A stretch of 64,000 nucleotides of DNA, from assembly GCF_001293685.1 (NCBI RefSeq), contig NZ_BCAG01000003.1:1860001-1924000 (forward strand), written 5' to 3'. Made by a program: the position numbers and the translations under genes. A model generated the notes under the pieces. That model worked only from the letters and a program-made list of their open reading frames with translations. It was not told where the DNA came from and made no database searches. This document shows, piece by piece, positions 235-59,852 of the stretch. Origin of the DNA: Desulfatitalea tepidiphila. Its GTDB lineage: Bacteria > Desulfobacterota > Desulfobacteria > Desulfobacterales > Desulfosarcinaceae. How positions within the stretch are numbered: the first letter of the stretch is position 1; the number at the start of each line of letters is the position of its first letter.

Positions 235-250
235 AGCAGGTTGTATGCCA
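235..250 (-). promoter_or_regulatory. Candidate sigma-54 (-24/-12) promoter
   Basis: Read on the minus strand the site is TGGCATACAACCTGCT. It keeps the GG of the -24 box and the TGC of the -12 box at the correct spacing of the consensus TGGCACG-N4-TTGCW. It faces the secreted-protein gene that starts at 113, leaving a leader of roughly 110 bases. Confidence 0.5.
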
Positions 251-525
251 TTTAAATTTATTCTTAAATTTCTTGTAGTTAGTTTGATTAAACCCGATGC
301 ACACAAAAAGAGGGGCTCCAAAGAGCTAAAATTGAGTAAAACAAACCTCAGATATGTGGAATTCAGGTCTTCGCTATGAAAAATATTCCACAACTGCCCG
401 CCCTCGGCGAAACCATCATGACACACGACACACGCCAACTATCCAATTAAACTTTTTATTTTTTCGAATATATAGTACCTAACCGGGCAATCATACTTGA
501 TAAAACCGTAAAAAGAAGCAGAGGC

Positions 526-597
526 GTCATGCCGGCGAACGCCGGCATCCAGAACATATTGAAAATACAGGATCCCGGCGTCCGCCGGGATGACGGG
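526..597. repeat. REP/BIME-like palindromic repeat
   Basis: Two palindromes built on GTCATGCCGGCGAACGCCGG and its variant GATCCCGGCG...CGCCGGGATGAC are joined by an AT-rich linker. Outside them lie CCGTAAAAAG and CTTTTTACGG, so the full unit of about 120 bases is itself an inverted repeat. Related units recur in at least nine intergenic places in the window. Confidence 0.85.
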
Positions 598-695
598 AAA
601 AACGCATTCCGGACTTTTTACGGTCCCGTCATACTTAATGGTTTACTAAAAATCCTCAAGGCGTTCACAGCGCCAACATTTGACAGGGGGAAAAA

Positions 696-2990
696 ATGAG
701 CCATTCTCAGCGCCACCCAGCCATCACGATCGCTGCAACACTTTTCATTGGCCTGCTGCTACTCAATGGATGCGCCTCGGACGAGGACAAAAAAGCGGCT
801 CACCTGCAAAAAGGAATCGCCTATTTTGAAAAGGGCGAATTCAAGAGCGCCGAAATCGAACTCCGCAACGCCATCCAGATCGATCCCCAATATCTGGCGG
901 CCCACCTCCAGTTGGCCGAAACCTACGTCAAGCTCGGCGACCCCAAAAGCGCCTTCCAAGAGTATTCGCGCATCGCCCAGCTCGATCCCGAAAACAGCGA
1001 CGCCAACCTTAAACTGGCCACGTTTCTGCTCTTGGGCAAACAGCTCGATCAGGCAAGAATACACGCCGAAAAGGTGCTTGCCGCATCCCCGCAGAATATC
1101 GACGCCATGATCATCCTGGCCGCCATCAGCGACCTTTCGGACAACCCGACCGAAGCCGCCGACCTATACAAACAAGTTCTTGCCATCGACATTACCCACA
1201 TTGGCGCCTACACCGGTTTGGCGCGCGCCTACGCCAAACTGGGGGATACGGCGCAGGCCGAACACACCCTGAAAAAAGCCGTCGCCGCCGCCCCCGGATC
1301 TGCAAAGCCCCATTTAACCCTGGCGGCCTTTTATGCCCAGCAGCAGCGTTTTGATATGGCCGAGCAGGAAATGCAAACGGCCGTCGCCAAAGAGCCCGGC
1401 AATGCCGAACTCCATACCACCCTGGGCAACTATTACATGTCCCGCGGCCAAACCGGCAACGCCGAAACCGCCTTCCTCGAAGCGGTCAAACTGCAGCCCA
1501 AAGAGACCAGGCCTTACCTGACCCTGGCCGCCTTTTACGAGGGTAGCCAAAAAAGCGACCAGGCAGAAGCCATGCTCAAACAAGCACTCGAGTTCAAGCC
1601 CGATGATGTCCAGTCCATGGACGCCGCGGCGCGGTTCTACCACCGCCACGACCAGACCGACCAGGCGGCGGCCCTGATCGACCAGGCACTGGCCCTGCGC
1701 CCCGGCTACACCCCGACGCGCCTGCTGAAAAGCGAACTTCTCATCGCCCAAAAGCAATATCCCGAAGCCATCGAACTGCTGGACCGCCTGATCGCCGAAG
1801 CCCCGAACCTCGCACCCGCACACCACCTCAAGGGAGCGGCCCTGCTCGCTAAGAACGACCTCAACCTGGCCAAGACCGCCCTGCTCAAAGCCGAAGAACT
1901 CAACCCGCAGATGCAGTCCACCAAGCTGATGCTGGCCGACATCTTCCTCAAACAACGCGATTTCAATTCTGCGCAGCAATATGCCCGCGGCATCGTCGCT
2001 ACCCAGCCGGAAAATTTCCAGGCCAACCTCATCCTCGGCAGCGCCCTGCTAGGCCAGCAGAAAACCGCCGAAGCCCTGCCCTATTTCAACAAGTTGATCG
2101 CGATCGAACCGGACAACCCCATCGGCTACTACCAACTCGGAAACCTCCAGGCCGCCACAGGCGACTACCCGTCCGCCCAGGCCAACTATGAACAGGCGCT
2201 TCGCATCAACCCCAACCTCATGGACGTGTTTACCAATCTGATCCGCGTCTATGTCGCCCAGAAGCAGCACGATGCCGCCCTGGCCAGATGCGACCGGCAA
2301 CTGCAAAGCGTGGCCCCAGGTACATTGCAGCGCGCCGTCATACACGACCTGAAAGGCAGCTTGTATGCATCCCAAAACAATATGGCCGCGGCCGAGCGCT
2401 CCTTCGAAGCCGCACTCGCCGAAAACCCCCAGTACCTGAAGCCATACTACGCCCTGGCCCGCATTTTCATGGCCAGGAACCAAAGCGACAAAGCCATCGC
2501 CCAGTACCAAACCATCCTGGCCAAAAAGCCCGACCAGCCGGGCGTGCGCATGCTCCTGGGCATCATCTACGAAATGCAGAATCAGCCGCAGTCGGCCGAG
2601 GAACAGTATCGCCAGGCGCTGCAGATCGATCCCGGCTTCGCCCCGGCAGCCAACAACCTGGCCTACATGCTGGCCTCCAATGACGGAGACCTCAACGAAG
2701 CCCTCAACCTGGCCCGCCTCGCCCGGGAAAAGCAGCCCGAGGATCCATCCGTGATGGACACCCTGGGATGGGTCCTCCTCAAACGCGGCCTCTACGACAG
2801 CGCCATCCGCGAGTTTTCGGAAAGCCTGGCCAAACTGCCCCGCAATGCCACCATCCATTATCATCTGGGGTTGGCCTACTATCAAAAACAGGAAATCGCG
2901 CTCGCCAGAAAGGCCCTGGAAACCGCCTTGAGCATCGATCAGGATTTCCAAGAGGCCGCGGCCGCCAAAAAACTACTGGCAGAAATGTAA
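696..2990 (+). CDS. PEP-CTERM system TPR-repeat lipoprotein (PrsT-like)
   Basis: The 764-residue product begins with a lipoprotein signal whose lipobox LNGC puts the modified cysteine at residue 26. The remainder is a continuous array of tetratricopeptide repeats, visible as recurring A..LG...A...Y..AL...P units. The length and architecture match the PrsT/TIGR02917 family, which occurs with exosortase and EPS loci and is thought to work as a periplasmic scaffold. The start is supported by GACAGGGGG eight bases upstream and by the signal peptide. The next gene begins one base after the stop, so the two are surely co-transcribed. The family role is known only by association. Confidence 0.85.
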   Translation: MSHSQRHPAITIAATLFIGLLLLNGCASDEDKKAAHLQKGIAYFEKGEFKSAEIELRNAIQIDPQYLAAHLQLAETYVKLGDPKSAFQEYSRIAQLDPENSDANLKLATFLLLGKQLDQARIHAEKVLAASPQNIDAMIILAAISDLSDNPTEAADLYKQVLAIDITHIGAYTGLARAYAKLGDTAQAEHTLKKAVAAAPGSAKPHLTLAAFYAQQQRFDMAEQEMQTAVAKEPGNAELHTTLGNYYMSRGQTGNAETAFLEAVKLQPKETRPYLTLAAFYEGSQKSDQAEAMLKQALEFKPDDVQSMDAAARFYHRHDQTDQAAALIDQALALRPGYTPTRLLKSELLIAQKQYPEAIELLDRLIAEAPNLAPAHHLKGAALLAKNDLNLAKTALLKAEELNPQMQSTKLMLADIFLKQRDFNSAQQYARGIVATQPENFQANLILGSALLGQQKTAEALPYFNKLIAIEPDNPIGYYQLGNLQAATGDYPSAQANYEQALRINPNLMDVFTNLIRVYVAQKQHDAALARCDRQLQSVAPGTLQRAVIHDLKGSLYASQNNMAAAERSFEAALAENPQYLKPYYALARIFMARNQSDKAIAQYQTILAKKPDQPGVRMLLGIIYEMQNQPQSAEEQYRQALQIDPGFAPAANNLAYMLASNDGDLNEALNLARLAREKQPEDPSVMDTLGWVLLKRGLYDSAIREFSESLAKLPRNATIHYHLGLAYYQKQEIALARKALETALSIDQDFQEAAAAKKLLAEM

Positions 2991-2991
2991 C

Positions 2992-4137: not shown

Positions 4138-4183
4138 CTACCATCCTTGCCAGTTGCGTAAAAATCCAAAATTCGCTTCCCCT

Positions 4184-5474: not shown

Positions 5475-5934
5475 ATCAGTATGCCCAGTGGATAATCATG
5501 CCCCAAGAAAGAGCCTCGAATAGCAAGAATACAACCGTTTTCTTAGGAGTGGGTCAATTAAAGCGGGACCCACCATGCACTCCTCTCTCTCGTTAAGCCT
5601 ATTATTTGACCATGCTCCTCACCAAGAAAATCAAGTGAATCATAGAAGTTGTAAAATTTTTCGACGTACCATGACACAATTTTCTCCCAAAACAATTTCC
5701 AATTTTCTATAACATAATAATCCCGTTTAAATACAGATAAGTAAAAGGCGATTAAACGATCTAAATTGTAGCTACACCGAAAGATTATGTCGAAAATTCT
5801 TACACCTCTTCATTTTAAGTCCATTAATATCAAGGTTTCTTCTTTGTTAACAGTAATTTAGTGATTTTGGCACGCATCTTGATTGTAATGCCTTCAAAAT
5901 CGTCCTTCACCTTAAAACCTGATAGGAGGTAAGT
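5475..5934. other. Intergenic, AT-rich leader region
   Basis: Beyond the sigma-54 element at its right end this region holds no gene I can support. It is much richer in A and T than the genes to its left. The stretch upstream of the promoter could carry activator sites, but I could not identify a repeated dyad by eye. Confidence 0.5.
5868..5883 (+). promoter_or_regulatory. Sigma-54 (-24/-12) promoter of the PEP-CTERM gene
   Basis: The site TGGCACGCATCTTGAT matches the sigma-54 consensus TGGCACG-N4-TTGCW at all positions of the -24 box and in the TTG of the -12 box, with one C-to-A change. It lies 52 bases before the ATG of the PEP-CTERM protein, an ideal distance. PEP-CTERM genes in other bacteria are known to be controlled by PrsK/PrsR with RpoN. 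Confidence 0.75.
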
Positions 5935-6495
5935 ATGAAAAAATTTAGTGTCTTTTTATGTAGTTTGGTAATGTTTTTCAGCATGGCAGGTTTAGCGAGT
6001 GCAGTGCCAGCAACATGGTCTGATTTTATCGATTGGACCCCCGACGAAGAAATCTCGCTTCTTTCAAACAACCCCTTTTCCTACTTTCATGATATTAGTG
6101 ATACAAGTTTTAATAGCGATTCTACAATTGATTATTTTGAACTCACTGTAGCGCTATATGACGATAATCAAGGCTATTGGTTTTTTGGGTACCACCCTGA
6201 TGGTAGCGAAACTGCTAATGTATCAGTTTTTGGTGATTATATTTCTTACGATTTTTCCTTAACGTCTAATACAATGGAATCGACATCTCTTCTTGCCAGA
6301 CTTGATATATATCACGACGGAACGTTAAACGTACTTATTACGTCTTTTGGCGGCGACTTTTTAGCGGATTACTCACAACTTACAGTATACGGTGATGATG
6401 GCACTGCCCCAGTTCCCGAACCGGCCACTATGCTTCTCCTCGGCACCGGTCTACTCGGGATGGTTGTCGTTGGCCGCAAACGCTTCAAAAAGTAG
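5935..6495 (+). CDS. PEP-CTERM sorting-domain protein
   Basis: The 186-residue product has a signal peptide (about residues 1-23, ending GLASA). A low-complexity, Asp/Ser/Tyr-rich extracellular domain follows. The C-terminus is a textbook PEP-CTERM anchor: VPEPATM at about 160-166, a hydrophobic helix LLLGTGLLGMVVV, and the basic tail GRKRFKK. Such proteins are cut by an exosortase at the PEP motif and placed in the envelope or extracellular matrix. The start follows an AGGAGG site 6 bases upstream. A strong terminator follows the stop, so this is a monocistronic gene driven by the sigma-54 element upstream. The middle domain is not recognised. Confidence 0.92.
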   Translation: MKKFSVFLCSLVMFFSMAGLASAVPATWSDFIDWTPDEEISLLSNNPFSYFHDISDTSFNSDSTIDYFELTVALYDDNQGYWFFGYHPDGSETANVSVFGDYISYDFSLTSNTMESTSLLARLDIYHDGTLNVLITSFGGDFLADYSQLTVYGDDGTAPVPEPATMLLLGTGLLGMVVVGRKRFKK

Positions 6496-13673: not shown

Positions 13674-14327
13674 TTAAAGAAACTCAACCAGAAAGGGTAC
13701 GAGGGCACCAAGAAATCTGGTTAGCCGCTCACTACCTAAATCTACATTTTCCTGTTGTATTCTTGTTGAAACTCTAATCAATGCACCGCTCTTATTGGAG
13801 CTGACAAGCTTATTCTTTGCAATATTAAGCCTCAATTTGAAGTAGCTTCTTCCCATATATGATCCGGATTTGTAAAAATAAAATACCAAATCACTGAAAT
13901 TCCCATTATTGGTTACAAGCTGATTAACCTCAAGCTTTAGTGTTTTTCTATTGCTATTAATTTCCAATGTTTGAGGAGATTTTAATAATCTTTCTCCCGC
14001 GCCTCCCAGACATGCTTCTGGAGCGTGGAGATCAACTTTAGTATCCGGATAGTAAACAAGCGATAAAAACACCTCACCTTGATTTGATTTATAATTTCGA
14101 TGGATAATAGATTTTGTCTCTAGGATTTCATATATTGAGGGCTCCAAATAGCTGTCAGTTCCCAGCCATCCATCAATTACCTTGGGGATATTATTAATTG
14201 CTGCTACCCCTTCATCAGCTTTTGAAAACACATCGTAATCAAAACAATTAATGGTGACAGCCATCAACGCAAGGGCACCAATAATTATCAAATAGCGGTT
14301 TCTTATTTTTTCCATTTGAGCATCCAA
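13674..14327 (-). CDS. epsI: EpsI, exosortase-associated protein
   Basis: The 217-residue product has one N-terminal membrane helix (about 12-28) and a periplasmic domain. The signature HAPEACLGGAG (residues 101-111) is the mark of the EpsI/TIGR02914 family. EpsI accompanies or is fused to exosortases and is thought to help EPS assembly or sorting, though its mechanism is unsettled. Its start overlaps the end of the exosortase gene by 25 bases, so translation is probably coupled. No defect is visible. Confidence 0.9.
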   Translation of the reverse strand: MDAQMEKIRNRYLIIIGALALMAVTINCFDYDVFSKADEGVAAINNIPKVIDGWLGTDSYLEPSIYEILETKSIIHRNYKSNQGEVFLSLVYYPDTKVDLHAPEACLGGAGERLLKSPQTLEINSNRKTLKLEVNQLVTNNGNFSDLVFYFYKSGSYMGRSYFKLRLNIAKNKLVSSNKSGALIRVSTRIQQENVDLGSERLTRFLGALVPFLVEFL

Positions 14328-15154
14328 TTTAGAGAAATCATCAAAATTAACCCTAAGGCGAATACAAATATTCCTGTTGCGCTATGCCAAACCGTGTCAG
14401 GTGCGGCCGCATCCAGGCCCCAAAAATCCGATATCAGGATCAACATTGGGACCCTAACAATATTTGAAAAAATAGCGATAGGTATGGATAGAACGAATAG
14501 TATCAGTTTCCTTAAATTTGAAACCTCGCTAATATAAGCCATCACCGCACCCAATGCTAAAAAAGCAATAAGTGATCGTAATCCGCTACAAGGGTTATCC
14601 ACCAATAACTGCCCTGCGGGTATGAATATTTGGAACCCTTCACGATAAATAGGGATGCCAAACATACTTACGATCATTACACCTGTCTGTGCCACAAGCA
14701 TTTTCATTGGGAAAGAGATAGCGAGGATAAGCGCTAAGGGAACCGGGAACATAAAAAGTAAGAACAACAAAGGGAACGCGACAATTCGTGTTATTTTTTT
14801 GCCGAAAATGAACAAAACGCATCCAAAAACTAAAAAGAAAATGGAGAAACCTGATATTGAGAAAATATAAAAAACCGTTCCCATAAGATGCAGAAACATT
14901 GCAAATGCGATTAAAATAAGTCCCCACATGGAGGGACTTTGTTTGGCCGATTTCAAACAACCGAGCTTGTTCCAAATCAGATATCCTGTAACAAAGGGGA
15001 TAATAAATCCATGTGAATAATATGAATCTGGGCTCACATAACGAGCATACATCCATTGAAGAGTCGAATGATAGGTTGTAAAAAACAGCAGTAGTAGGAC
15101 AGGGAAAAAGATCAAATGAGATTTTCGCTTATTGAAAGATTTAAAATTATACAT
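14303..15154 (-). CDS. Exosortase (intact copy)
   Basis: The 283-residue product is a polytopic membrane protein with the exosortase catalytic set. Cys189 lies in VDNPCSGLRSLIAFLALG, Arg234 in FSNIVRVP and His257 in DTVWHSATG. Exosortases are cysteine transpeptidase-like enzymes that recognise PEP-CTERM signals at the inner membrane. The motif around the cysteine reads NPCSGLRSL, not the EACSGLRYL I associate with exosortase A, so I do not assign a subtype. Its ATG is about 100 bases from a truncated IS481 fragment, so its original promoter may be lost. It may be transcribed from across the IS cluster or from an IS-borne promoter. Confidence 0.92.
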   Translation of the reverse strand: MYNFKSFNKRKSHLIFFPVLLLLFFTTYHSTLQWMYARYVSPDSYYSHGFIIPFVTGYLIWNKLGCLKSAKQSPSMWGLILIAFAMFLHLMGTVFYIFSISGFSIFFLVFGCVLFIFGKKITRIVAFPLLFLLFMFPVPLALILAISFPMKMLVAQTGVMIVSMFGIPIYREGFQIFIPAGQLLVDNPCSGLRSLIAFLALGAVMAYISEVSNLRKLILFVLSIPIAIFSNIVRVPMLILISDFWGLDAAAPDTVWHSATGIFVFALGLILMISLNWMLKWKK

Positions 15155-22063: not shown

Positions 22064-24514
22064 TCATTGCGTCACCATTTTTAGGTTTTCCGGCGGTTTA
22101 ACTACGGTTTTAATGACACTCCAATATGACCACTCGGAGTTGTTACCCCCCGAGTCTGACTGGCGCACTCTTATAAAATAAACTGTATTTTCATGTAATT
22201 TTGTATTTCCTGCAAGGGCTCCTTGAAACTCACCTGTTGAACTGTTAACTGTTAACGAATTGCCATCCCCAAGGGTCTCCCCTGCCCATACCAACCCAGT
22301 CTCGCCCTTTGATGAACTGACTTGTACCTCAAAACCGCCTTGGGAATCTCCGGAATCAGGATCTTCAAAACCGGATTTAGTCAGAGTTGGATTAACAGGT
22401 GATAATACAGGTCCAATAGGAGCCGTTGAAATAACGATGTTATCTAAATATCTTTCTCTATAACCTGGTGCACCGCCATTCCAATAATTTCCAAATAAAA
22501 TGGCATTGATACCATATTCCTGCCACTCGCCTGTCCAATCAAGATTGGAATAACCGCCTTCCAAACGTCCGTCTATCCAGCATTCAAATACTCCGTCTGC
22601 AAGACCTGGTGTGTTAAGTTTTACATGAATTTCAACCAGATGCCATGAATTGCTCATCACAGAATCATATATCGGAGTGCCCCCTTTTTTTGCCCCTAAC
22701 CATGTTAAGCCATTAAAATCATTGTAACCGGAGGTGGCTAATGAGTTACCGGAAATACCAGTGGCTGGATCCATCTTGATGACAGTATCACCGTCTTCCC
22801 CCCATAAATGGGCAACCATTGCTTGGGACCAATCTGATCGGGCGAAACTGGTTGCACGGGTCAGCTTGAAGGGATTGCCTGTCCATCCTTCTGATGTTTT
22901 GAGATAGAACCTCCAGTAGATTTCACGAAAATCAGTTTCAGTATTTCCTTTGGATGCTACTGGATTACGTCCAAACATATACCAAAATGACCCCGCATCT
23001 ACCTGACCAGTATTCCACCTGACACGCAACCCGTTCGTGGCTCCGACGCCTATACCGCTAACGACCGCACAGTCGCCATTATTGCTATTATAAAAAATGT
23101 ATTTATCAGTCATGGTTTCAGGACCATCAAAATCGTCTTGGAAAAGAATGGCATTACTATGCACATCGCGATCTATTTCCACAGCGAGGAACTGAGGTGT
23201 AAAAGGTGGATTGGAACTTGATATGGGAACCGGTGTTGGGGTCGGCTCTACTGGGGTTGAACTACCCAAACCTACCGCTGAAATGTCAGCCCCCATATCC
23301 TTCCCGTCGCTTGCTGCACGGTACCCCAATGAGGTTGAATTAAGCGCAAAACCTTCAATTGAGCTTGGAGAGTCACCGCCAACAAATGTGAGCTCTCCTG
23401 ACAATGATCCATCATCCTGTCGGAAATACGATTGCCAGCTTGATAGGTTGTAATTCACACGATTGTTAATCACTGCTGTACCAGATGGGTATAAATTATG
23501 ATGCAATGTTGAATAGTGGGGCCAACTGCCATATCTGAACACTTCGACTGTATTTGAAAAAACATTGTCACGCATAGTATTGTACTGGGCTCCGGATCCA
23601 TCATTGCTTGAAGATCGAATTAACTGGATGGCGCCTCCGTAGAAAGTATTGTGCCTTATAATATTATGGTCGCCACCTGCATTGCTGCCGTCATCACCAG
23701 TCCCACCATCTTCCCCTATGAGCATACCGCAGTTTACAAATAAATTATCATGAATGTCAGCGTACTGTGATACGGTAACAATTCCACTGCTATTATTATA
23801 AAAGTAGTTATAGGCAAACTCAATCCCTGTATTTTCGGGAATACATGTATGCTTATAATAAATGGCTCTGGGAAAATTATTAAAAACAGTTCGAAAAACC
23901 TTAATACCCTGAGATCTAAAGACAAAAACACCAGCAGTGTTGATATTTCCCCATCTGTTAGGGCCTGTAAAATCACAATTTTCAACTTGCCCGTAACTTG
24001 CCCTTGCAGCCTGAAACCGAACGAGGCCTATGTTTTCACTTCCACCTTCACCAGTAAGCACTCCCCTACAGTCAGAGATTTTAAAATGAGTTGCATTGTT
24101 TGTGTTGCCGATGTACCAGAAAGTACCAGGCCCTGTGAATGCAATCCCTTGCACCTCATAGTAATCTCTATCAATGTAGATGGCCCTGTTAACGGAACTA
24201 ATAAATGAGACTGTTTGATTAGAATAATTTGTGAAAAGAACGCGATTTGAACTCGATGAAGGATTAGGGTTTGATTTTGTTTCAATTGTTGACTGGATTG
24301 GATATTCACCTTGAGTAAAATAGACTGTATCACCCGGATTTACAGATGAAAAAGCCCTTGATACAGTACGCCAAGGATGGCTGATATCATTTTGTTCATA
24401 AGAGTAATTATCGTTTCCTCCTTGTGATACATACAAATCTTTGGCATAAACAATATTTCCACTTATCATGATTATAAAGAATAATTCAAAGATTCTAAGA
24501 AAAATAGAGCGCAT
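22064..24514 (-). CDS. Secreted right-handed beta-helix protein with a lyase-like C-terminal part
   Basis: The 816-residue product has a signal peptide ending IVYA. The region to about residue 400 is a parallel beta-helix of the PbH1 type, opening DLYVSQGGNDN and with repeated N-x-F/I turns such as NYFYNNSSGI and IIRHNTFYGG. A Pro/Thr linker (about 425-445) leads to a domain of about 230 residues that resembles polysaccharide-lyase or concanavalin-like folds (DDFDGPETM..., WHLVEIHVKLN). An FN3-like end follows. It has no PEP-CTERM anchor. It may bind or trim the EPS outside the cell. It has its own sigma-54-like promoter and terminator, so it is a separate transcript inside the locus. Confidence 0.78.
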   Translation of the reverse strand: MRSIFLRIFELFFIIMISGNIVYAKDLYVSQGGNDNYSYEQNDISHPWRTVSRAFSSVNPGDTVYFTQGEYPIQSTIETKSNPNPSSSSNRVLFTNYSNQTVSFISSVNRAIYIDRDYYEVQGIAFTGPGTFWYIGNTNNATHFKISDCRGVLTGEGGSENIGLVRFQAARASYGQVENCDFTGPNRWGNINTAGVFVFRSQGIKVFRTVFNNFPRAIYYKHTCIPENTGIEFAYNYFYNNSSGIVTVSQYADIHDNLFVNCGMLIGEDGGTGDDGSNAGGDHNIIRHNTFYGGAIQLIRSSSNDGSGAQYNTMRDNVFSNTVEVFRYGSWPHYSTLHHNLYPSGTAVINNRVNYNLSSWQSYFRQDDGSLSGELTFVGGDSPSSIEGFALNSTSLGYRAASDGKDMGADISAVGLGSSTPVEPTPTPVPISSSNPPFTPQFLAVEIDRDVHSNAILFQDDFDGPETMTDKYIFYNSNNGDCAVVSGIGVGATNGLRVRWNTGQVDAGSFWYMFGRNPVASKGNTETDFREIYWRFYLKTSEGWTGNPFKLTRATSFARSDWSQAMVAHLWGEDGDTVIKMDPATGISGNSLATSGYNDFNGLTWLGAKKGGTPIYDSVMSNSWHLVEIHVKLNTPGLADGVFECWIDGRLEGGYSNLDWTGEWQEYGINAILFGNYWNGGAPGYRERYLDNIVISTAPIGPVLSPVNPTLTKSGFEDPDSGDSQGGFEVQVSSSKGETGLVWAGETLGDGNSLTVNSSTGEFQGALAGNTKLHENTVYFIRVRQSDSGGNNSEWSYWSVIKTVVKPPENLKMVTQ

Positions 24515-24587: not shown

Positions 24588-24603
24588 TGCAAAAATATTG
24601 CCA
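24588..24603 (-). promoter_or_regulatory. Candidate sigma-54 promoter of the beta-helix protein
   Basis: Read on the minus strand the site is TGGCAATATTTTTGCA, matching TGGCA of the -24 box and TTGCA of the -12 box at exact spacing. It is 74 bases before the ATG at 24514. The remainder of the 267-base gap holds nothing else I can name. Confidence 0.6.
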
Positions 24604-25963: not shown

Positions 25964-27398
25964 GAGACCTTTGCACAACCACCCTCCCCAGCCGTGCGCA
26001 TTACCTGGGGTGGCCGCATATTTTACTTCTATCTCGCTTTAAAAATTCGCATAAATACTACGAAATACGTTTATCCTATTGTTATCTATGTTTATTTATG
26101 TCATAATGCTTCTAAATTTCAATCTATCAGGAGGCATCATGGCATACCGTAAACCCCAACGCTACTTTTCCTTCGCCGACCTTGCCGTCGAAAAGCATGC
26201 CGATAAAAACCGCGCCCTGGCCGTGCTCAAGCAGCTCAATTTGACCATCGACTGGAATCCTATCAAAAAACTCCTGGACCAATTCTACCAAACCGGCAAA
26301 CAGATCGAAGGCGGCAAGGCCTACCCGCCCCTTTTGCTATTCAAATGCCTGCTGCTTTTAAAAATGGTTTCAGATCCCCTCCGACCCGGAGCTCGAAAGC
26401 CAGATCAACGACCGCATCTCCTTTAAATCCTTCCTGGGATTGCCCCTGGATCAGGCCGCTCCGGATCACTCCACCTTTTCCAGATTCCGCAGCCGCCTGT
26501 CCAAGCAAGCCATGATAAAGCTCAACAGCGCGCTGCTTGCCCAGCTGCATCAGCACGGGATCACCGTCAATGAAGGCGTCGCCATCGATGCCCGCCTCGT
26601 TAAATCCGCTTCAAAACCAGTCTCAAACGATAAGCTCACCGAGCTTCGCGACAAAAACGCCGGCCCCGACGGCAACCTGGATAAAAACGGCAATCCGAAA
26701 AAATTCTCCCGCGATCTTGAATCCGACTGGACCATCAAAAACGATCTCCCCCATTTCGGCCTGAAAGAACATGCCGCAGTCGAGGTGGAAAATGGACTGA
26801 TTTTGTCAACCACCCTCACCCCGGCCTCCCACAGCGACTCGACCTATCTGCCCTATGCCACCATCTACAGCATGCATACCGATCAGAAAATCGATGTGGT
26901 CTATGCCGACAAGGGCTATGCCGGCGCCCCGAATCGAAACTTTCTTGCCATGAACCAAATCGCCGACGGCATCATGCGAAAAAACAATATCAACGCTTCC
27001 CTTACCGAAGCCGAAATCGCCAGAAACAAATCCATCTCCAAAAAACGATACATTGTCGAACAGTATTTTGGCCTGGCCACCCTGTTTGATGATCGCAGCC
27101 GGGCACGGTTTACCACCATTGTGAAAAACAGCATCGATGCCATGTTTAGGCAGTTTGCCTTCTGCAACCTGCAAAAAGGGGCCCGGATTTTAAGGCGCCT
27201 TCCCGCATAGCGGGGGCATAGGTGCGCCTGGAGCCTCAGATCCAGGCAAATCGGCTCTGGGACAGGGCCAATATGGGGCAGTCGAGCCATTCCGAAAGCG
27301 AAAAAAGTGCTCCGAACCGCCGACCAGTCGGCCGCAAGTTGAAAAATTGGCTCCGAAAATGAAAAACTTGAGGAATGTGAGCTCAATTCAAACCTCTC
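25964..27398 (+). mobile_element. IS5-family element, copy 2
   Basis: The left end GAGACCTTTGCAC and the right end, read inward GAGAGGTTTGAAT, are imperfect inverted repeats. From the left end to about 27343 it appears identical to copy 3 (offset 11601 bases). The last 55 bases differ at many positions. It interrupts an IS3 orfB just after its start (MIDRSVK), and the other half of that IS3 is absent on the far side. Confidence 0.88.
26139..27210 (+). pseudogene. IS5-family transposase with one frameshift (copy 2)
   Basis: Translation starts MAYRKPQRYFSFADLAVEKHAD after an AGGAGG site and stays in frame to KCLLLLK. There TTTTAAAAATGG has one base more than copy 1 (TTCAAAAATGG). The second frame resumes with PLDQAAPDHSTFSRFRSRLS and carries the catalytic blocks AIDARLVKSASKP, VYADKGYAG and YIVEQYFG to the end. 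Joining the two needs a +1 shift, not the -1 shift common in IS elements, so I call it broken. The identical defect in copy 3 shows one descends from the other after the mutation. Confidence 0.85.
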
Positions 27399-37564: not shown

Positions 37565-38999
37565 GAGACCTTTGCACAACCACCCTCCCCAGCCGTGCGC
37601 ATTACCTGGGGTGGCCGCATATTTTACTTCTATCTCGCTTTAAAAATTCGCATAAATACTACGAAATACGTTTATCCTATTGTTATCTATGTTTATTTAT
37701 GTCATAATGCTTCTAAATTTCAATCTATCAGGAGGCATCATGGCATACCGTAAACCCCAACGCTACTTTTCCTTCGCCGACCTTGCCGTCGAAAAGCATG
37801 CCGATAAAAACCGCGCCCTGGCCGTGCTCAAGCAGCTCAATTTGACCATCGACTGGAATCCTATCAAAAAACTCCTGGACCAATTCTACCAAACCGGCAA
37901 ACAGATCGAAGGCGGCAAGGCCTACCCGCCCCTTTTGCTATTCAAATGCCTGCTGCTTTTAAAAATGGTTTCAGATCCCCTCCGACCCGGAGCTCGAAAG
38001 CCAGATCAACGACCGCATCTCCTTTAAATCCTTCCTGGGATTGCCCCTGGATCAGGCCGCTCCGGATCACTCCACCTTTTCCAGATTCCGCAGCCGCCTG
38101 TCCAAGCAAGCCATGATAAAGCTCAACAGCGCGCTGCTTGCCCAGCTGCATCAGCACGGGATCACCGTCAATGAAGGCGTCGCCATCGATGCCCGCCTCG
38201 TTAAATCCGCTTCAAAACCAGTCTCAAACGATAAGCTCACCGAGCTTCGCGACAAAAACGCCGGCCCCGACGGCAACCTGGATAAAAACGGCAATCCGAA
38301 AAAATTCTCCCGCGATCTTGAATCCGACTGGACCATCAAAAACGATCTCCCCCATTTCGGCCTGAAAGAACATGCCGCAGTCGAGGTGGAAAATGGACTG
38401 ATTTTGTCAACCACCCTCACCCCGGCCTCCCACAGCGACTCGACCTATCTGCCCTATGCCACCATCTACAGCATGCATACCGATCAGAAAATCGATGTGG
38501 TCTATGCCGACAAGGGCTATGCCGGCGCCCCGAATCGAAACTTTCTTGCCATGAACCAAATCGCCGACGGCATCATGCGAAAAAACAATATCAACGCTTC
38601 CCTTACCGAAGCCGAAATCGCCAGAAACAAATCCATCTCCAAAAAACGATACATTGTCGAACAGTATTTTGGCCTGGCCACCCTGTTTGATGATCGCAGC
38701 CGGGCACGGTTTACCACCATTGTGAAAAACAGCATCGATGCCATGTTTAGGCAGTTTGCCTTCTGCAACCTGCAAAAAGGGGCCCGGATTTTAAGGCGCC
38801 TTCCCGCATAGCGGGGGCATAGGTGCGCCTGGAGCCTCAGATCCAGGCAAATCGGCTCTGGGACAGGGCCAATATGGGGCAGTCGAGCCATTCCGAAAGC
38901 GAAAAAAGTGCTCCGAACCGCCGACCAGTCGGCCGCAAGTTGAAAAGTGCGCTCCGAAAATAATAAACTTGAGGAATGCAACCTCAATTCAAACCTCTC
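37565..38999 (+). mobile_element. IS5-family element, copy 3
   Basis: It has the same ends as copy 2, GAGACCTTTGCAC at the left and GAGAGGTTTGAAT inverted at the right. About 1.38 kb is identical to copy 2, but the last 55 bases resemble copy 1 more. It lies in the same direction as copy 2 and cuts an exosortase gene after about 145 codons. Confidence 0.88.
37740..38811 (+). pseudogene. IS5-family transposase with one frameshift (copy 3)
   Basis: Both translated halves are identical to those of copy 2, including the extra base at TTTTAAAAATGG that separates KCLLLLK from the downstream frame. The catalytic blocks are intact in the second frame. A non-functional gene that moved must have used a transposase supplied by another copy, or was duplicated by recombination. 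Confidence 0.85.
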
Positions 39000-39426
39000 A
39001 GGGGCAATGAAACCAGTCCAATGATCGATATCGGCACCGGGATCATGAATAGAAGAAAAAAAGGGGAAATGCTAGTTTCTTGAAAATGACCGGGCCATAG
39101 TTGTAAAGCACCAAGCCGATCAGTGAGAACACGATCATGCTGCGCGCAGCAACCGCAATGGCACCCGCAAAACTGAGGATGTATACAACCAGGCTGGCAA
39201 TGAACAGCAACGCCCCCCGCAAATCCATTTGGGGCGAGAGGTCCTTGACTTCGTCCCGCTTCTGCCAAATGAAGAAGGCGGCGATGAACGGCACCAATAT
39301 CCCGTGGGAGTTGTTGGAATCATTCAGCCATGTCTCGAAAAGGCCGGGGTATAGCGGGAAAAATACGGCGGCCCACAGCAAAAGCAGCAGCCCGGTTTTG
39401 ATGCTTATCGTTTTGAAGGTTCCCAC
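39000..39426 (-). pseudogene. Exosortase, N-terminal fragment cut by IS5
   Basis: The product starts MGTFKTISIKTGLLLLLWAAVFFPLYPGLFETWLND, then SNNSHGILVPFIAAFFIWQK, the typical exosortase N-terminus. It runs to FKKLAFPLFFF. At a run of seven T bases (minus strand) the frame is lost. One more T would continue LLFMIPVPISIIGLVSLPL, the next conserved exosortase segment. The IS5 right end follows directly, so the catalytic Cys, Arg and His region is gone. The start overlaps the end of the GT2 gene. This was probably the original exosortase of the locus. Confidence 0.88.
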
Positions 39427-53780: not shown

Positions 53781-55367
53781 CTAACCCATGGGTAACAACT
53801 TCTTTACGGCACCCACCAACTGCTCCGGCCCTCGGAGGCATACGAATGCGAAAACCGCCAGGAAGGCCAGGGTGATCATCGAAAAAGCGATACTCCCTGC
53901 GACATCGAGTTTTCTAAAGAGTATCTGTTTGGGACGAAAGACGGTCGGGATCGAGGTGAGCACCGGCAATTCGAAAAACGTCTCCACATCGTCTGGTTTT
54001 CGAAGTGAGGTATTCAGATATTCCAGGAGAAATGCCGCTCCACCGCCGATGCCCAATCCCACGGCGACGACCATCAGAAAGAGCTTGCGCAAGTCAGGCG
54101 CAACCGGCTTTTGCGGTACTTTTGCGGAATCGATGATTCTGAATTGCTCGCCCTTCTGTTTACGCTCCATGTTGACGGCAATATCGGCTTCCAATTTCCG
54201 GCTCAGCAGGGAATCGTAGGACGCTTGAATATTTTGGTAATCCCTTCTCAGCCCCAATAGCTCCTGTTCTCTTTTGGGGGTGTTCTCCACCCGCTTCTGG
54301 TATTCGGCGATCTGGTTCTTCAAATTCACAATTTCGCCTTCAGCGAGTTGGATTTCTCTACGGGCGTCACCGATCTGGCGTCGCAACTCGGGAGAGAGCG
54401 ATGCGCTTTGCGGCAGTTGGCTGTTTCCATCCGCTGCCTCGGATGATTGCTTGGCTTCGAGTTCTTCGATGAGCTTTTTTGTTCTTAAAAGGTCCGGATG
54501 CTTTTCCGTATACCTTGACCTCAGACTCTCGTACTGTTCTTTCAGCTCCTCGAGGCTGGCGCCACCTTCAGCAGGCCTTGTGCCCTCGCCGATAACCACC
54601 ACGGATTGGCTTCTCGCCGAGGCCTGATTGCTCAGATCCGAGATCCTGGCGCGGGCGTCCCTGAGGTTTTGCTGCTGATCATTCAGGTTCTCCTGCAAGC
54701 GATCCAGAATACGCAGATTGGTTTCGAGCTGCTCCGGAAGCTCTCCCATATAGGTTTTGCGATACTCTTTCATGCTTTCCTCGAGTTGCTCGAGGCGGGA
54801 TCGCATTGACAACAATTCCGAATCCAGGAACTCGCTGGTTCCTATTGCCTGGGATTCTCTGACCTTCAAATTTTCGTCTATAAAATAGGAGGCCAGGCCA
54901 TTGGCGACACTGGCGATCTTATTCGGGTCCTTGCCTTTAAAGGTGATCGAAAAAGCGTCCGTGCCTCTTCTGTGATCGGAAATCACATCGATGGTGATTT
55001 GTCTGCGCAGAATGTCGATTTTTTCTTCCGTGAAGAGATCTCTTTGCGGCGGTTCGCTAAATAAACTGAAGTCATTGATGATTTTCTCCAGATTCGAGCG
55101 GCTCAGGATCTGTTGAGACAACGTGTTGATGCGCTCGCCGGGGTCGACGGTCACGATGGATTGCACGAATTGCTGGGGCACCCTTTGGGGTTCTATCAAA
55201 ATGAGGGTCTTGGCCTCGTATATTTTGGGCAGGGTTATGGACAAATAGATTCCGGCGATCAACGCCAGAAAAAAGGGAATCAGAATCAGCCACCGCCGCC
55301 GAAGAACCAGTTCGAGGATGAATTCCGGTGTTATTTTGAATGTCGATTTTTCGTTGGTCTCATTCAT
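53781..55367 (-). CDS. Chain-length determinant protein, exosortase-associated (Wzz/Wzc N-domain)
   Basis: The 528-residue product has two membrane spans, near residue 30 (RRWLILIPFFLALIAGIYL) and near the C-terminus. Between them lie the Wzz motif IYEAKTLILIEPQRVPQQF and a long coiled coil (about 170-400). SAKVPQKPVAPDLRKLFLMVV is the Pro-rich segment before the second span. It matches the TIGR03007 type. It is the first gene of the long EPS transcript and works with the tyrosine kinase. The 1.3-kb region upstream contains a candidate sigma-54 element. Confidence 0.92.
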   Translation of the reverse strand: MNETNEKSTFKITPEFILELVLRRRWLILIPFFLALIAGIYLSITLPKIYEAKTLILIEPQRVPQQFVQSIVTVDPGERINTLSQQILSRSNLEKIINDFSLFSEPPQRDLFTEEKIDILRRQITIDVISDHRRGTDAFSITFKGKDPNKIASVANGLASYFIDENLKVRESQAIGTSEFLDSELLSMRSRLEQLEESMKEYRKTYMGELPEQLETNLRILDRLQENLNDQQQNLRDARARISDLSNQASARSQSVVVIGEGTRPAEGGASLEELKEQYESLRSRYTEKHPDLLRTKKLIEELEAKQSSEAADGNSQLPQSASLSPELRRQIGDARREIQLAEGEIVNLKNQIAEYQKRVENTPKREQELLGLRRDYQNIQASYDSLLSRKLEADIAVNMERKQKGEQFRIIDSAKVPQKPVAPDLRKLFLMVVAVGLGIGGGAAFLLEYLNTSLRKPDDVETFFELPVLTSIPTVFRPKQILFRKLDVAGSIAFSMITLAFLAVFAFVCLRGPEQLVGAVKKLLPMG

Positions 55368-55853: not shown

Positions 55854-55869
55854 AGCAAGTAATATGCCT
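55854..55869 (-). promoter_or_regulatory. Possible sigma-54 promoter upstream of the EPS operon
   Basis: Read on the minus strand the site is AGGCATATTACTTGCT. It keeps GGCA and TTGCT at the right spacing but lacks the first T and the AC of the -24 box. It is 487 bases before the first operon start, which implies a long leader, so this is a weaker case than the other sites. Confidence 0.35.
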
Positions 55870-56072
55870 GTTATCCGATTCCGCTTCGATTCGATTCCCG
55901 TGATTTTCTGCCAAATCGCGTTTATATGTAATTATAGTTAATTATCGGCATCGAAGGGAATTAGATAAGGTTGGGTCGCCACATTTTTTCTGTTTTTGGG
56001 TTTTACGATTATGTAAAACGATACCACTTTTTAGAATAAATTATCTTTGGCTGAGAGAAATTTTATCCACAC

Positions 56073-56208
56073 CGTGGTGTTGTTTGCACTGTCACCCCGG
56101 CGACTATTATTGCCCCGTCACTCCGGCGAACGCCGGAGTCCAGCAAATACTCTGGAACAGCAACAAGCCCGGGTTCTGGATCCCGGCGTTCGCCGGGAAG
56201 ACGGGTCG
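56073..56208. repeat. REP/BIME-like repeat
   Basis: CCCCGTCACTCCGGCGAACGCCGGAGTCCAG and GGATCCCGGCGTTCGCCGGGAAGACGGG are separated by about 40 bases. One palindrome has the CTCCGG variant also seen at 60073. Confidence 0.8.
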
Positions 56209-56714
56209 CTGGCATCGGGGCCAGTTTCAACCAACCCTCATTTTCAACAAACCCCTATGACTGGTCGTGGACATCGGGACCGGGTGCAGGCGACCTTGAT
56301 GACGGGTCGCGGATATCGAGGCTATTCTCAACCAACTTTTTGGTGGGATTTAGAGTGGTGCTGATAGCGGATATGTGTAAGTCTGTGCCATCGTGAAGAA
56401 GCCTGGTTGAGCGACGATTCGTTAGACTTGAATCAGAGGAGAATTAGGAACGAGGAAAAGGATCGATACACATATATTTTTGCTGGCAAAGGCAATTTGG
56501 CACATAAAACTCCACCCCCCCAAAAAACCATCGATTGGGTTTTCAGGGGCTGGAACGAGTATATTGATTATTGAATTGCCAGTTTCACACAAGCCGTTTG
56601 TTACTACAGCACGCCTCCAATCCCAACGCCGCCAGGCGCCACGCGCCTGGCACCGACCTTTTTACCGTTCAGCCATCGATATCGAGCGATTCACATAGCC
56701 CTGATAAAAACTCA

Positions 56715-56912
56715 CTATCTGGTTTTAGATATTTTCAACAAAGTCCCGAATCCGATGAGACCAAAACCGATCATTAACATTTTAACGGGTTCTGAGATTC
56801 CCAGCAGTAGGCTTTTTTCGGGAATGGTGGTGGGTACTGCACCACTCACACAGAACAGCATCACCATAAACAATGTGCCTAACATAAAAATCAATTTAAA
56901 CTTCTTACCCAT
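56715..56912 (-). CDS. Minimal PEP-CTERM-like protein, 65 residues
   Basis: The product has a signal peptide (MGKKFKLIFMLGTLFMVMLF, then CVSGA, cut near residue 25). About 14 residues follow (VPTTIPEKSLLLGI), then a sorting-type tail SEPVKMLMIGFGLIGFGTLLKISKTR. That tail is SEP in place of PEP, a hydrophobic helix and a basic end. After both cleavages only about 15 residues would remain. The start chosen has a G-rich leader and gives a clean signal peptide; an earlier in-frame ATG at 56951 does not. A very good sigma-54 element lies 101 bases upstream, supporting a real gene. It is transcribed toward the EPS operon. Confidence 0.72.
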   Translation of the reverse strand: MGKKFKLIFMLGTLFMVMLFCVSGAVPTTIPEKSLLLGISEPVKMLMIGFGLIGFGTLLKISKTR

Positions 56913-57012
56913 CCCAACCCCCCAGAAGCTACATGATGCAGCATCAACCATTCAATTTGGTATAAGAAAATTACTTGCTATTGTTTAATCAGATGGACGC
57001 ACTTAGCCGTAT

Positions 57013-57028
57013 AGCATAGGAAGTGCCA
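57013..57028 (-). promoter_or_regulatory. Sigma-54 promoter of the minimal PEP-CTERM-like gene
   Basis: Read on the minus strand the site is TGGCACTTCCTATGCT, with a perfect TGGCAC -24 box and TGCT in the -12 box at exact spacing. It lies 101 bases before the ATG at 56912. The other sequence between 56913 and 57360 holds a REP unit only. Confidence 0.7.
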
Positions 57029-57237
57029 TATTTGCTCAGGTTGGCATAAATGGTTTATTTTATATTTATTACAGTTGGTTGCTTGGATAGGAGAGTTGAG
57101 GAGACTGCCCGCGGAGATCCAAAAGCTATGTAGTTAAATTCACAATTACAGTCTCTGTGTGTAGTTTTATTTCTATGGGACGGGCTTCTATAGTCTGGGA
57201 TGGGGAAAAAAGGGAAGCGTCCTGCAAAAAGTCGCAT

Positions 57238-57325
57238 AAGCGTCATACCGGCGAACGCCGGCATCCAGAACCTATTGAAAATACTGGATCCCGGATTCCG
57301 TTGGGGTGACGGGGAAAGTGAATTC
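57238..57325. repeat. REP/BIME-like composite repeat
   Basis: A full unit, GCGTCATACCGGCGAACGCCGG ... GGATCCCGGATTCCGTTGGGGTGACGG, lies between an outer CAAAAAGTCGC arm and a diverged right arm. It is more decayed than the unit at 526. Confidence 0.75.
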
Positions 57326-57360
57326 CGGTCTGTTTAGATCGCCGTCATTATCGAGGCGGT

Positions 57361-58236
57361 CTACTTGAATTCGTATTTCAGGATGTCCAACAGATAGCTG
57401 CCGTAGCTGTTTTTGCAAAGGGGTTCGGCCAGTTCTTCGAGCCGGGCGGGCGAAATGTATCCCATGCGGTAGGCGATTTCTTCGATGCAGGCGATTTTCA
57501 ATCCCTGGCGCTGTTCTATGGTTTCGATAAAGTTGGAGGCTTGCATCAGGCTTTCGTGGGTGCCGGTGTCGAGCCAGGCAATTCCCCGGCCGAGCTTTTC
57601 GACGTAAAGTTCACCCATGCGCAGGTAGGTGTTGTTCACGTCGGTGATTTCCAGTTCACCGCGTTGGGAGGGTTTGAGACCGGCGGCGATGTCCAGCACG
57701 CGGTTGTCGTAAAAGTAGAGCCCGGTGATGGCCCAATTGGATTTTGGCGCCTGGGGTTTTTCCTCGATGTCGGTCACTTTGCCGGATTCGTCGAACACGG
57801 CCACACCGTAGCGCTGCGGCTGCTTGACCCAGTAACCGAATACGGTGGCGCCGGATGTTTTTCGGGCGGCCCTGCGGACTTGGTCGGTCAGGCCGTGGCC
57901 GTAATAGATGTTGTCGCCCAGGATGAGGCTGACAGGATCGTCGCCGACGAACTGCCGGCCGATGATGAAAGCCTGGGCCAGGCCTTCGGGATGCGGCTGC
58001 TGGGCATAGGAAAAATTCAAGCCCCACTGGGAGCCGTCGCCGAGAAGCCGTTCGAAGTTGGGCAGGTCGTATGGGGTGGAGATGATCAGTATGTCCCTGA
58101 AGCCGGCCAGCATAAGCACGGACAAAGGGTAGTAGATCATGGGCTTGTCGTAGATCGGCAGCAACTGCTTGCTGACGGAGCGGGTCAGGGGATAGAGGCG
58201 GGTGCCGGAACCGCCGGCGAGGATAATGGCTTTCAT
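57361..58236 (-). CDS. rmlA: Glucose-1-phosphate thymidylyltransferase
   Basis: The 291-residue product (start [21 protein letters not shown]) is a typical RmlA/RfbA. It has the nucleotide-binding GGSGTRLYP, the catalytic-region [27 protein letters not shown] with the metal Asp, [28 protein letters not shown] and [10 protein letters not shown]. It makes dTDP-glucose, the first step toward dTDP-rhamnose and other deoxysugars. Other rml genes are not in the window. The longer frame to 58320 has no family-like N-terminus. It probably feeds the EPS. Confidence 0.95.
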
Positions 58237-58383
58237 GGATTCGGATGCTTTCTCAGGAAATATTATAGGCTGGCATGACGCCTCTGCGATGTCTACGAGT
58301 TCACCGGTCAATTGGATCAATTGACTTTTATCGCTTTTTACAAAGGCAGGTCAAGGGGTTGCTGAGTGTTTGATTTGAAGGGG

Positions 58384-58440
58384 CTCCGGTCACTGAGGGG
58401 GCAGCGGTGCCCATGCAAATGCAGGCGTCAGTGACCGGAG
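58384..58440. repeat. Perfect 13-base inverted repeat
   Basis: CTCCGGTCACTGA (58384-58396) and TCAGTGACCGGAG (58428-58440) are exact inverse copies around a 31-base GC-rich loop. They lie between the golvesin-domain gene stop and rmlA. There is no T-run, so it is not a classical terminator. Confidence 0.85.
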
Positions 58441-58467
58441 ACGGGGCGAAGCGGGGCAATCCAACCC

Positions 58468-59721
58468 CTATTTTGAATACAGGACGGCATCCGCACAGGT
58501 GGTGCAGGTGCTGGAGCGGGATTCCACGACGATTTTGGCCGTACCTGAAAAATCGTAGTCGCCCAGATAATTCCAACGGCCGCCGTCGTCACGCTGGTCC
58601 ACGTAAATGGTTTCCAAAAGACGGGTCCCGTCATAGATTTTTACGGGCACATTCGAGCACCGCGAGCTGTATTCGGTCCACCAGACGGAGACGCCGTAAC
58701 TGCCGCTCAACGCGGACTGGTAAGTGTAGCTTGTCCCCGATTGTTTGCTGTACAACGATTGGGCGCCATAGGGGTTCGTACCGCCGGAAGCCTTCCAGGT
58801 GCCGATCGCCGAGGTTCCGGATTTGCCGTCGTCAACGACGACATTTGTGCCGCCGGTCGCGGCGCTTCCAGCTTTGGTCAGCTCAACCGCATCCGCACAG
58901 GTGGTGCAGGTGCTGGAGCGGGATTCCACGACGATTTTGGCCTTGCCCGAGAAATCGTAATTGCCCAGGTAATTCCAGCGGCCGCCGTCGTCACGCTGGT
59001 CCACGTAAACGGTTTCCAACAGGTCGCTGCCGTCATAGATTTTTACGGGCACGTTCGAGCAGCGTGAGCTGTATTCGGTCCACCAGATGGAGACCTCGTA
59101 ACTGCCGCTCAATGAAGACTGGTAGGTGTAGCTGGTCCCCGATGCTTTGCTGTACAACGATCGGCCGCCATAGGGGTTCGTGCCGCCGGAAGCCTTCCAG
59201 GTGCCAACCGCGGAGGTCCCGGATTTGCCATCGTCGATAATGACGGTGCTCGTTCCGCTGGTCGAGGTCGTTGGTGATGTCGTAGAGGTGGATGAACCGC
59301 CGGACGAACTGGAGTGAAAGGCCACTTCGTTGGAATCGTCGCTTTCCTCGCTTCCTTTGAAAGAGCGCACGATGAAATAATAGGTCGTATTGTCATTGAG
59401 ATTGGTAATCGTGGTGGAGGTGGCACGCCCTGTCCAGGCCGGATATCGATAATCGTACTGACTGCTCTGAGTCCGACGATAAACGCAATAGCCATCGGGA
59501 ACCGGAGAGCTCTTGGCTTGCCAGGACAGGGATACTTGTGCAGCGAAGGCCGTTGAGGCGCCCAAGCACCAAAGGGAAAACACCAGGAGAAGACATAACG
59601 ACCACCAGTGGAAAGGGAATGTCCCTGCCCGAGTGAAAATTTTGGGGCGATGCCCCAATCTTAAATTTGAGTTGTAATTGCAGGCTGTTTGGGGAGTGGT
59701 ACCGTTTTCAGGACAAGGCAT
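58468..59721 (-). CDS. Secreted FN3 plus tandem golvesin-like domain protein
   Basis: The 417-residue product has a late signal peptide (about 36-60, ending STAFAA). An FN3 domain follows (VSLSWQAKSSPVPDGYCVYRR to FIVRSFKGSEESDDSNEV), then a Ser/Thr linker. Two nearly identical domains of about 120 residues close it, each opening DDGKSGTSAxGTWKASGGTNPYG and closing KIVVESRSSTCTTCADAV. These look like golvesin C-terminal-like domains, found in secreted lyases and polysaccharide-binding proteins. The CTTC pair may form a disulfide. It has no PEP-CTERM tail. A sigma-54-like element lies upstream. It probably binds the matrix. Confidence 0.82.
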   Translation of the reverse strand: MPCPENGTTPQTACNYNSNLRLGHRPKIFTRAGTFPFHWWSLCLLLVFSLWCLGASTAFAAQVSLSWQAKSSPVPDGYCVYRRTQSSQYDYRYPAWTGRATSTTITNLNDNTTYYFIVRSFKGSEESDDSNEVAFHSSSSGGSSTSTTSPTTSTSGTSTVIIDDGKSGTSAVGTWKASGGTNPYGGRSLYSKASGTSYTYQSSLSGSYEVSIWWTEYSSRCSNVPVKIYDGSDLLETVYVDQRDDGGRWNYLGNYDFSGKAKIVVESRSSTCTTCADAVELTKAGSAATGGTNVVVDDGKSGTSAIGTWKASGGTNPYGAQSLYSKQSGTSYTYQSALSGSYGVSVWWTEYSSRCSNVPVKIYDGTRLLETIYVDQRDDGGRWNYLGDYDFSGTAKIVVESRSSTCTTCADAVLYSK

Positions 59722-59836
59722 CGAAAGGCGGCCTCCATTTCTTTAAAAATTATTCTATTTTTTACAAGGGATTAACTGAACGGAAGGTCCGTGGCAGAAT
59801 CACCTTTTAAGTAAACTCTGAGCTTGCAAAGCTCTC

Positions 59837-59852
59837 TGCAAATTAGGTGCCG
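59837..59852 (-). promoter_or_regulatory. Candidate sigma-54 promoter of the golvesin-domain gene
   Basis: Read on the minus strand the site is CGGCACCTAATTTGCA, matching GGCAC of the -24 box and TTGCA of the -12 box exactly, with only the first T replaced by C. It lies 115 bases before the ATG at 59721. Confidence 0.6.

Follow-up and report, generated by a model that had tools for sequence, protein, structure and literature searches.

Conserved sigma-54-type elements ahead of exosortase-substrate, polysaccharide and fn3 genes of Desulfatitalea tepidiphila may answer to several activators

The window, a stretch of 64,000 nucleotides of Desulfatitalea tepidiphila DNA (C3:1860001-1924000; genome 5.61 Mb, 7 contigs), contains five 16-nt elements of the -24/-12 type ahead of genes for PEP-CTERM and secreted proteins. 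The locus raises the question whether the genes behind such elements form one regulon, as the sequence-only reading had proposed in assigning all five sites to PrsK, PrsR and RpoN, or whether sigma-54 serves several activators. We favour, at a probability of roughly 0.65, the view that the matrix genes have sigma-54 promoters under separate activators, falling into classes A, B, C and fn3. Exosortase substrates, a polysaccharide operon and secreted fn3 proteins would thus be reached by sigma-54 RNA polymerase through separate activators. The elements, boxes, conservation and gene neighbourhoods on which this view is built emerge from comparison of sequences.

Sigma-54 promoters ahead of PEP-CTERM genes are already known (PMC1569441, PMC9850573). 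In the description by Haft and colleagues a 17-nt motif 1 ending in TTTACA is followed by a sigma-54 motif at a mean spacer of 62.8 nt (32-92), and this arrangement precedes 99 of 167 proteobacterial PEP-CTERM genes (PMC1569441). The PEP-CTERM gene pepA of Aquincola tertiaricarbonis has a mapped start with TGGCAC and CTGCTT motifs and is RpoN1-dependent (PMC9850573). The pepA work is experimental, concerns one gene and, in its accessible text, describes no second operator, whereas here several genes are treated by comparison.

All five 16-mers pointed out earlier were found in the window letters in the expected orientation, as follows.

235 to 250, minus strand: site 1, -24/-12 element TGGCATACAACCTGCT, ahead of a PEP-CTERM start
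1 to 122, minus strand (whole gene C3:1859493-1860122): start of the site-1 gene, encoding a 209-aa PEP-CTERM protein (PF07589, 31.4 bits)
5868 to 5883, plus strand: site 2, -24/-12 element TGGCACGCATCTTGAT, upstream of a PEP-CTERM gene
5935 to 6495, plus strand: site-2 gene, 186-aa PEP-CTERM protein
24588 to 24603, minus strand: site 3, element TGGCAATATTTTTGCA
22064 to 24514, minus strand: site-3 gene, 816-aa secreted protein
57013 to 57028, minus strand: site 4, element TGGCACTTCCTATGCT
59837 to 59852, minus strand: site 5, element CGGCACCTAATTTGCA

Each departs from TGGCAYN5TTGCW at a single position, and no perfect match is among them. With the GG and GC cores placed ten bases apart, the GG and the G are present in 5/5 sites; site 2 has TTGAT where the consensus has TTGCW. 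The distances from the end of the site to the start codon were 121, 51, 73, 100 and 115 nt for sites 1 to 5, in agreement with the claimed leaders of about 50-120 bases. Similar elements were found upstream of the relatives' genes for site 1 (n=3), site 4 (6/6) and site 5 (33/44, including itself), and also for a sixth site described below; the site 2 promoter resembles class-A promoters of relatives. The site-1-type elements, TGGCATGCGATATGCT, TGGCATGCAACCTGCT and TGGCATGCAAACTGCT, stand ahead of three similar genes (L106, L107, L119). A shared sigma-54 signature for sites 1, 2, 4, 5 and the sixth site appears well supported, and the elements are presumably used by sigma-54.

When up to two mismatches were allowed, the window was not enriched in matches (63 vs 70.69 in shuffles, sd 7.66). 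In a stricter scan at most one mismatch was accepted, the GG and the G of the GC were fixed, and the reversed motif served as control. This yielded 12 matches (reversed motif 2) in the 128,000 strand positions of the window, and 13 (reversed 11) in 640,000 strand positions of control DNA, which consisted of 16 stretches of 20 kb (320 kb) cut from the same genome at round coordinates. The density of strict matches was 4.6-fold higher in the window (Poisson p 1.8e-5); at the control rate about one chance match would be expected there. A strict site within 300 nt upstream was seen for 6/234 control genes (reversed motif 2/234). The codon-usage gene caller was poor for short and AT-rich genes; its own window count was 0/39 because it missed or mis-started all five site genes. 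A binomial p of 0.006 for five matches is based on a rough tally of 45 genes.

The enrichment that the sequence-only reading had suggested testing was seen across relatives. An element with at most one mismatch was present within 300 nt of 22/39 PEP-CTERM genes (6 perfect) from the window, its left flank and nine relatives, and at 33/44 fn3 genes, compared with 6/234 control genes; the Fisher p values, 8.7e-17 and 2.7e-27, respectively, overstate the case because the tested genes are related. The PEP-CTERM set was chosen by sequence expression in fetched stretches, not from all PEP-CTERM search matches; it is without the genes of sites 1 and 4, and a false call (L116 2892) was removed. In the whole genome 43 perfect consensus matches were counted vs 6 for the backwards pattern, and this promoter type is therefore in use in this genome. 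Three fn3 genes were among those downstream of the 30 perfect sites inspected; others of these sites precede genes that we take, from the letters of their proteins, to be pilin-like, transporter-like, stress-like and flagellar-like. The -24/-12 element alone therefore defines no regulon.

Three regulatory genes named in the one-regulon proposal are all encoded in the genome, each scoring over its cut-off:

C3:1853990-1856008: prsK, 353.8 bits, cut-off 300
C3:1857599-1858942: prsR, 553.4 bits, cut-off 502.6
C3:2384525: rpoN, single copy in the genome, 455.9 bits, cut-off 277.35

As claimed, prsK and prsR are outside the window, but they lie only 1-6 kb left of its edge. Near prsK there is a second gene for a PrsT-like TPR lipoprotein (L047, C3:1849731-1852031, minus strand), the start of which resembles that of the window's prsT-like gene at 696-2990.

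Two copies of the PrsR box (box A) were found ahead of the site-2 gene:

5788 to 5804, plus strand: box A, TGTCGAAAATTCTTACA, 63 nt ahead of the site 2 -24 element
5650 to 5666, minus strand: second, inverted box A, CGTCGAAAAATTTTACA, exact pattern, score 26.7, outside the training set

Among the five sites the published range of motif 1, 32-92 nt ahead of the sigma-54 motif, was matched at site 2 only. The PEP-CTERM gene adjoining prsR has a box A with a spacer of 84, and in several relatives PEP-CTERM genes bear YGTCGAAAANNYTTACA at the published spacing. A box-A score of at least 15 was reached by 10/40 PEP-CTERM genes, seven of which were training genes; at least 10 was reached by 2/227 control upstreams, the best of which scored 15.5. 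The exact box-A pattern occurs at 4 places in the whole genome, 3 of them at the prsR/site 2 locus; the reversed control also gave 3, so the count is not significant, though the placement is telling. At the remaining place (C1:319103) there was no element with up to two mismatches within about 350 nt. In class A, PrsR would bind YGTCGAAAANNYTTACA some 62-84 nt ahead of the -24 element; the PrsR gene lies about 1 kb to the left of the window, and the targets would be site 2 and the PEP-CTERM gene next to prsR. These two genes fit the motif 1 and spacing of the cis-element that Haft and colleagues described together with PrsK/PrsR/PrsT, whereas sites 1, 4 and 5 are without motif 1 (PMC1569441).

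One PrsK/PrsR/RpoN regulon for all five sites is what the three genes, the PrsR box at site 2 and the published link of PrsR-type boxes and RpoN to PEP-CTERM genes (PMC1569441, PMC9850573) might lead one to expect, but a PrsR box was looked for in the 200 nt ahead of sites 1, 3, 4 and 5 and not found, and 0/44 fn3 genes reached a box-A score of 8. The operator at sites 1 and 4 is another one (box B, below). It is present also in three genomes, G001, G007 and G011, in which the search for PrsR gave nothing that reached 1e-140 (G007 is only 73% complete). We consider the single regulon most improbable and have rejected it in favour of separate activators.

Box B came from the family of the site-4 gene.

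56715 to 56912, minus strand: site-4 gene, 65-aa mini protein with signal peptide and SEP tail
57127 to 57144, no strand assigned: box B at site 4, score 14.6, exact palindrome
375 to 392, no strand assigned: box B at site 1, score 18.6 with the matrix from site-4 homologues

The site-4 protein is made up of a signal peptide, a short linker and then SEPVKMLMIGFGLIGFGTLLKISKTR. In the seven aligned members SEP, which replaces PEP, the glycines and the end are visible; no Pfam or NCBIfam model matches the protein. The 25 relatives searched contained six true homologues, each with an element about 45-110 nt upstream; one of these elements has 1 mismatch and the other five are perfect. Two other matches (L173, L174) lay inside unrelated proteins and were discarded as chance.

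The seven upstream regions of this family have in common TRTGTAA-N4-TTACAYA (138.6 vs 86.5, 88.5 and 86.0 for shuffles). A matrix trained on the six homologues, site 4 excluded, gave scores of 2.1, 5.0 and 1.4 at sites 2, 3 and 5; in 233 control upstreams the 99th percentile was 11.9 and the maximum 16.4. A common activator dyad, which the earlier reading had suggested looking for, was thus found as the box B palindrome at sites 1 and 4 but not at the other three. A box-B score of at least 9 was obtained for 14/22 sigma-54 PEP-CTERM promoters vs 10/233 controls, with a p value (1.2e-11) that overstates the case because the homologues are related; three of the 14 genes are similar to the site-1 gene. 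Six of the seven class-A promoters among the 22 stayed below 9, and the seventh, beside prsR, scored 11.6 because its box A overlaps the box-B pattern, so classes A and B are not strictly separate. In the own genome the exact palindrome occurs at three places including site 4, the reversed pattern at none. The two further places (C1:465905, C6:509445) have no clear matrix gene; there was no element with up to two mismatches within about 350 nt of the former, and one-mismatch elements lie 54 nt before and 126 nt after the start of the latter (plus strand).

Box B is an 18-bp palindrome, which ends 124 nt (site 1) and 98 nt (site 4) before the element, beyond the range given for motif 1 (PMC1569441). 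As a DNA element, a second operator for exosortase substrates seems well supported by these comparisons. In class B an activator other than PrsR would bind it, usually 50-150 nt ahead of the -24 element, and the targets would be sites 1 and 4 together with many other PEP-CTERM genes of the genus. Among the open-access papers listed we came across no account of box B or of the mini protein, the Haft logo and the DVUA0057/DVU0110 motif lying outside the comparison.

Site 3 has neither box A nor box B, and it is probably a chance match in AT-rich DNA, with its gene using another promoter. The 4-kb bins around it have a GC of 0.43-0.44, and the site may be the one such match expected in the window. 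The site-3 protein had no match in 12 relatives, which left the site without a conservation test, and no Pfam family scored above cut-off. What speaks for a promoter is that both cores, GG and GC, are preserved and that the gene begins 73 nt downstream.

A receiver gene and then the gene for a putative activator, EBP1, come after the mini gene in G001, G002, G005, G007 and G009; identity to the G005 copies was 82-90% for the receiver and 84-95% for EBP1, partly over short stretches. EBP1 has the features of a sigma-54 activator (sigma-54 interaction domain, PF00158 225.4 bits; Fis-type HTH, PF02954 37.3 bits; GAFTGA in 5/5). It was ruled out as a PrsR, scoring 277.3 bits with TIGR02915 vs a cut-off of 502.6. 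In the own genome the receiver and EBP1 are located at about C3:2018403-2019843, adjoining aat- and clpA-like genes, and share 80% and 73% identity with the G005 copies; the next activator of the own genome shares 40%, in a comparison that covered 57 loci rather than every activator gene. The mini gene sits apart from them, in the polysaccharide region. In G011 the mini gene was without a receiver up to the contig end. A scan of named genomes gave 23 loci, ten of them at 72% identity or more; in five of those ten, the ones new to the comparison, no mini gene was seen beside the receiver.

The best candidate for the class B activator would be EBP1, which has GAFTGA and whose receiver is encoded separately, and the adjoining genes suggest the pairing of EBP1 with box B. 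Which protein binds which box we infer. It is quite possible, though we think it on balance improbable, that box B is real and is bound by another of the genome's many activators. An example is the NtrC-type activator encoded in G005 at L106 (1049-2395, minus strand), upstream of and divergent from the site-1-type PEP-CTERM gene at 2914 (plus strand), with a homologue of 66.5% identity in the own genome at about C3:2569742. That mini gene and EBP1 lie apart in five further loci as well as in the own genome is in line with such an activator, but 5 relatives have the mini gene next to the receiver and EBP1, and the stretches around L107 and L119, the other two site-1-type genes, showed no activator of the L106 type. 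We retain EBP1 as the candidate and give close to even, but not quite even, odds to a second sigma-54 system for exosortase substrates, distinct from PrsK/PrsR, in which a lone receiver with a GAFTGA activator would act through an 18-bp palindrome and the signature target would be the 65-aa protein, hardly more than a signal peptide with a sorting tail.

There are partial parallels. BerB of Burkholderia cenocepacia is a GAFTGA activator; it has no N-terminal input domain and works with RpoN on polysaccharide control; BerB binds c-di-GMP, and EBP1 differs by the separate receiver gene next door (PMC5552954). In the sulfate reducer Desulfovibrio vulgaris, DVUA0057 and DVU0110 are NtrC-type response regulators, and five predicted PEP-CTERM targets were enriched in the binding assay of DVUA0057 (PMC3333781, PMC4641369).

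The window carries genes of an XrtA-type polysaccharide system, of which the chain-length gene and a sugar transferase exceed their cut-offs. Earlier no site had been seen in front of the core enzymes checked; this did not hold, as a conserved sixth site precedes the polysaccharide operon.

55854 to 55869, minus strand: sixth site, AGGCATATTACTTGCT, 486 nt ahead of the chain-length gene
53781 to 55367, minus strand: polysaccharide chain-length gene, first of the operon (TIGR03007, 291.2 bits, cut-off 278.85)
56009 to 56030, minus strand: box C, upstream of the sixth site

Elements like the sixth site stand ahead of the chain-length gene or of a gene for another activator-like protein, EBP2, in five other loci, one of them in the own genome. 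The six promoters have box C in common: AGTGG occurs at -154 to -170 in 6/6, within an AAAGTGGYA...TTACATA-like sequence, and the 22-mer scored 155.0 vs a maximum of 119.7 in eight shuffles. The own-genome EBP2 (L263 4517-5941, minus strand; C3:2016517-2017941) has its -24/-12 element 54 nt before the start; at L279 and L280 the element is 63 and 227 nt ahead of EBP2. The EBP2 gene carries box C, in relatives it is found beside polysaccharide genes, and the protein, which counts against the favoured view, is without GAFTGA in 4/4. In this it resembles VpsR-type proteins, VpsR being without GAFTGA according to Francke and colleagues; VpsR was placed outside sigma-54 control, whereas EBP2 is preceded by a -24/-12 element (PMC3162934). 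In class C, box C and the sixth site would control the polysaccharide operon.

Identical 256-aa transposase-like translations at 26440-27210 and 38041-38811 mark a repeated insertion element in the polysaccharide region. Close to the transposase-like ORFs at 37.7-38.8 kb, a 127-aa fragment (39043-39426, minus strand) resembles the N-terminal half of exosortase A with 84.0 bits, below the cut-off; a further exosortase-like gene (283 aa) is at 14303-15154.

The remaining class is represented by site 5.

58468 to 59721, minus strand: site-5 gene, 417-aa secreted protein with fn3 and golvesin domains (PF25275, 112.8 bits, cut-off 31.6; PF00041, 25.9 bits, cut-off 25)

The search for fn3 homologues gave 47 matches starting in the first 60 query residues, of which 46 loci were scored (G005:C10:146850 was left out); L192 and L196 gave no start, which reduced the set to 44, and six were located by sequence expression. 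An element with up to one mismatch lies within 350 nt of 33/44, perfect in 16, and all 6/6 own-genome members have one. The inclusion of unanchored proteins in the promoter set thus stood for the fn3/golvesin proteins. The beta-helix assignment of the site-3 protein found no support in Pfam, where nothing scored over the cut-offs. No clear shared operator emerged for the fn3 class, motif scores being only modestly above shuffles, and a box-B score of at least 9 was found in 2/33 of its promoters.

An Rfam search of 40 of the 44 fn3 genes (without L179, L204, L206 and L210) detected an aptamer of the c-di-GMP-I family in 19/40 leaders, 18 RF01051 and one RF03167. In 19/19 the aptamer lies between element and start, 33-63 nt past the former and 55-70 nt before the latter (L183 2636-2725, L162 1314-1404, L176 2225-2315 and 16 more loci). 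Site 5 and an own-genome paralogue have no riboswitch. Site 5 would belong to an fn3 class under a separate activator, in which a riboswitch is often added, though not at site 5 itself; the riboswitch-bearing genes would be controlled twice, first by sigma-54 and then through the leader RNA. A GEMM leader ahead of an FnIII gene is known from Geobacter (PMC13194489). In both cases a leader of the c-di-GMP-I class precedes the gene of an fn3 surface protein; in the present set a sigma-54 element stands ahead of each of 19 such leaders, and RpoN is not named in the main text of that paper (PMC13194489). We found no open-access paper joining riboswitch, sigma54 and fn3.

The presence of a -24/-12 element does not suffice to assign an exosortase gene to PrsR; upstream operators split the genes into classes. 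If the second sigma-54 system exists, then, with box C and the riboswitch-bearing fn3 genes, matrix production would have parallel sigma-54 inputs instead of one regulon. Box B, its candidate activator and the mini substrate offer targets for the coupling of protein sorting to polysaccharide export in this sulfate-reducer lineage, and the 65-aa protein, a candidate exosortase-type substrate, may be of use in exosortase studies as a minimal substrate of natural origin.

A riboswitch at the window's own sites was considered and rejected, as Rfam at the gathering score gives only two group II introns in the window. These matches (RF00029, RF01999; 16049-17860, minus strand) lie on both sides of a reverse-transcriptase-like ORF.
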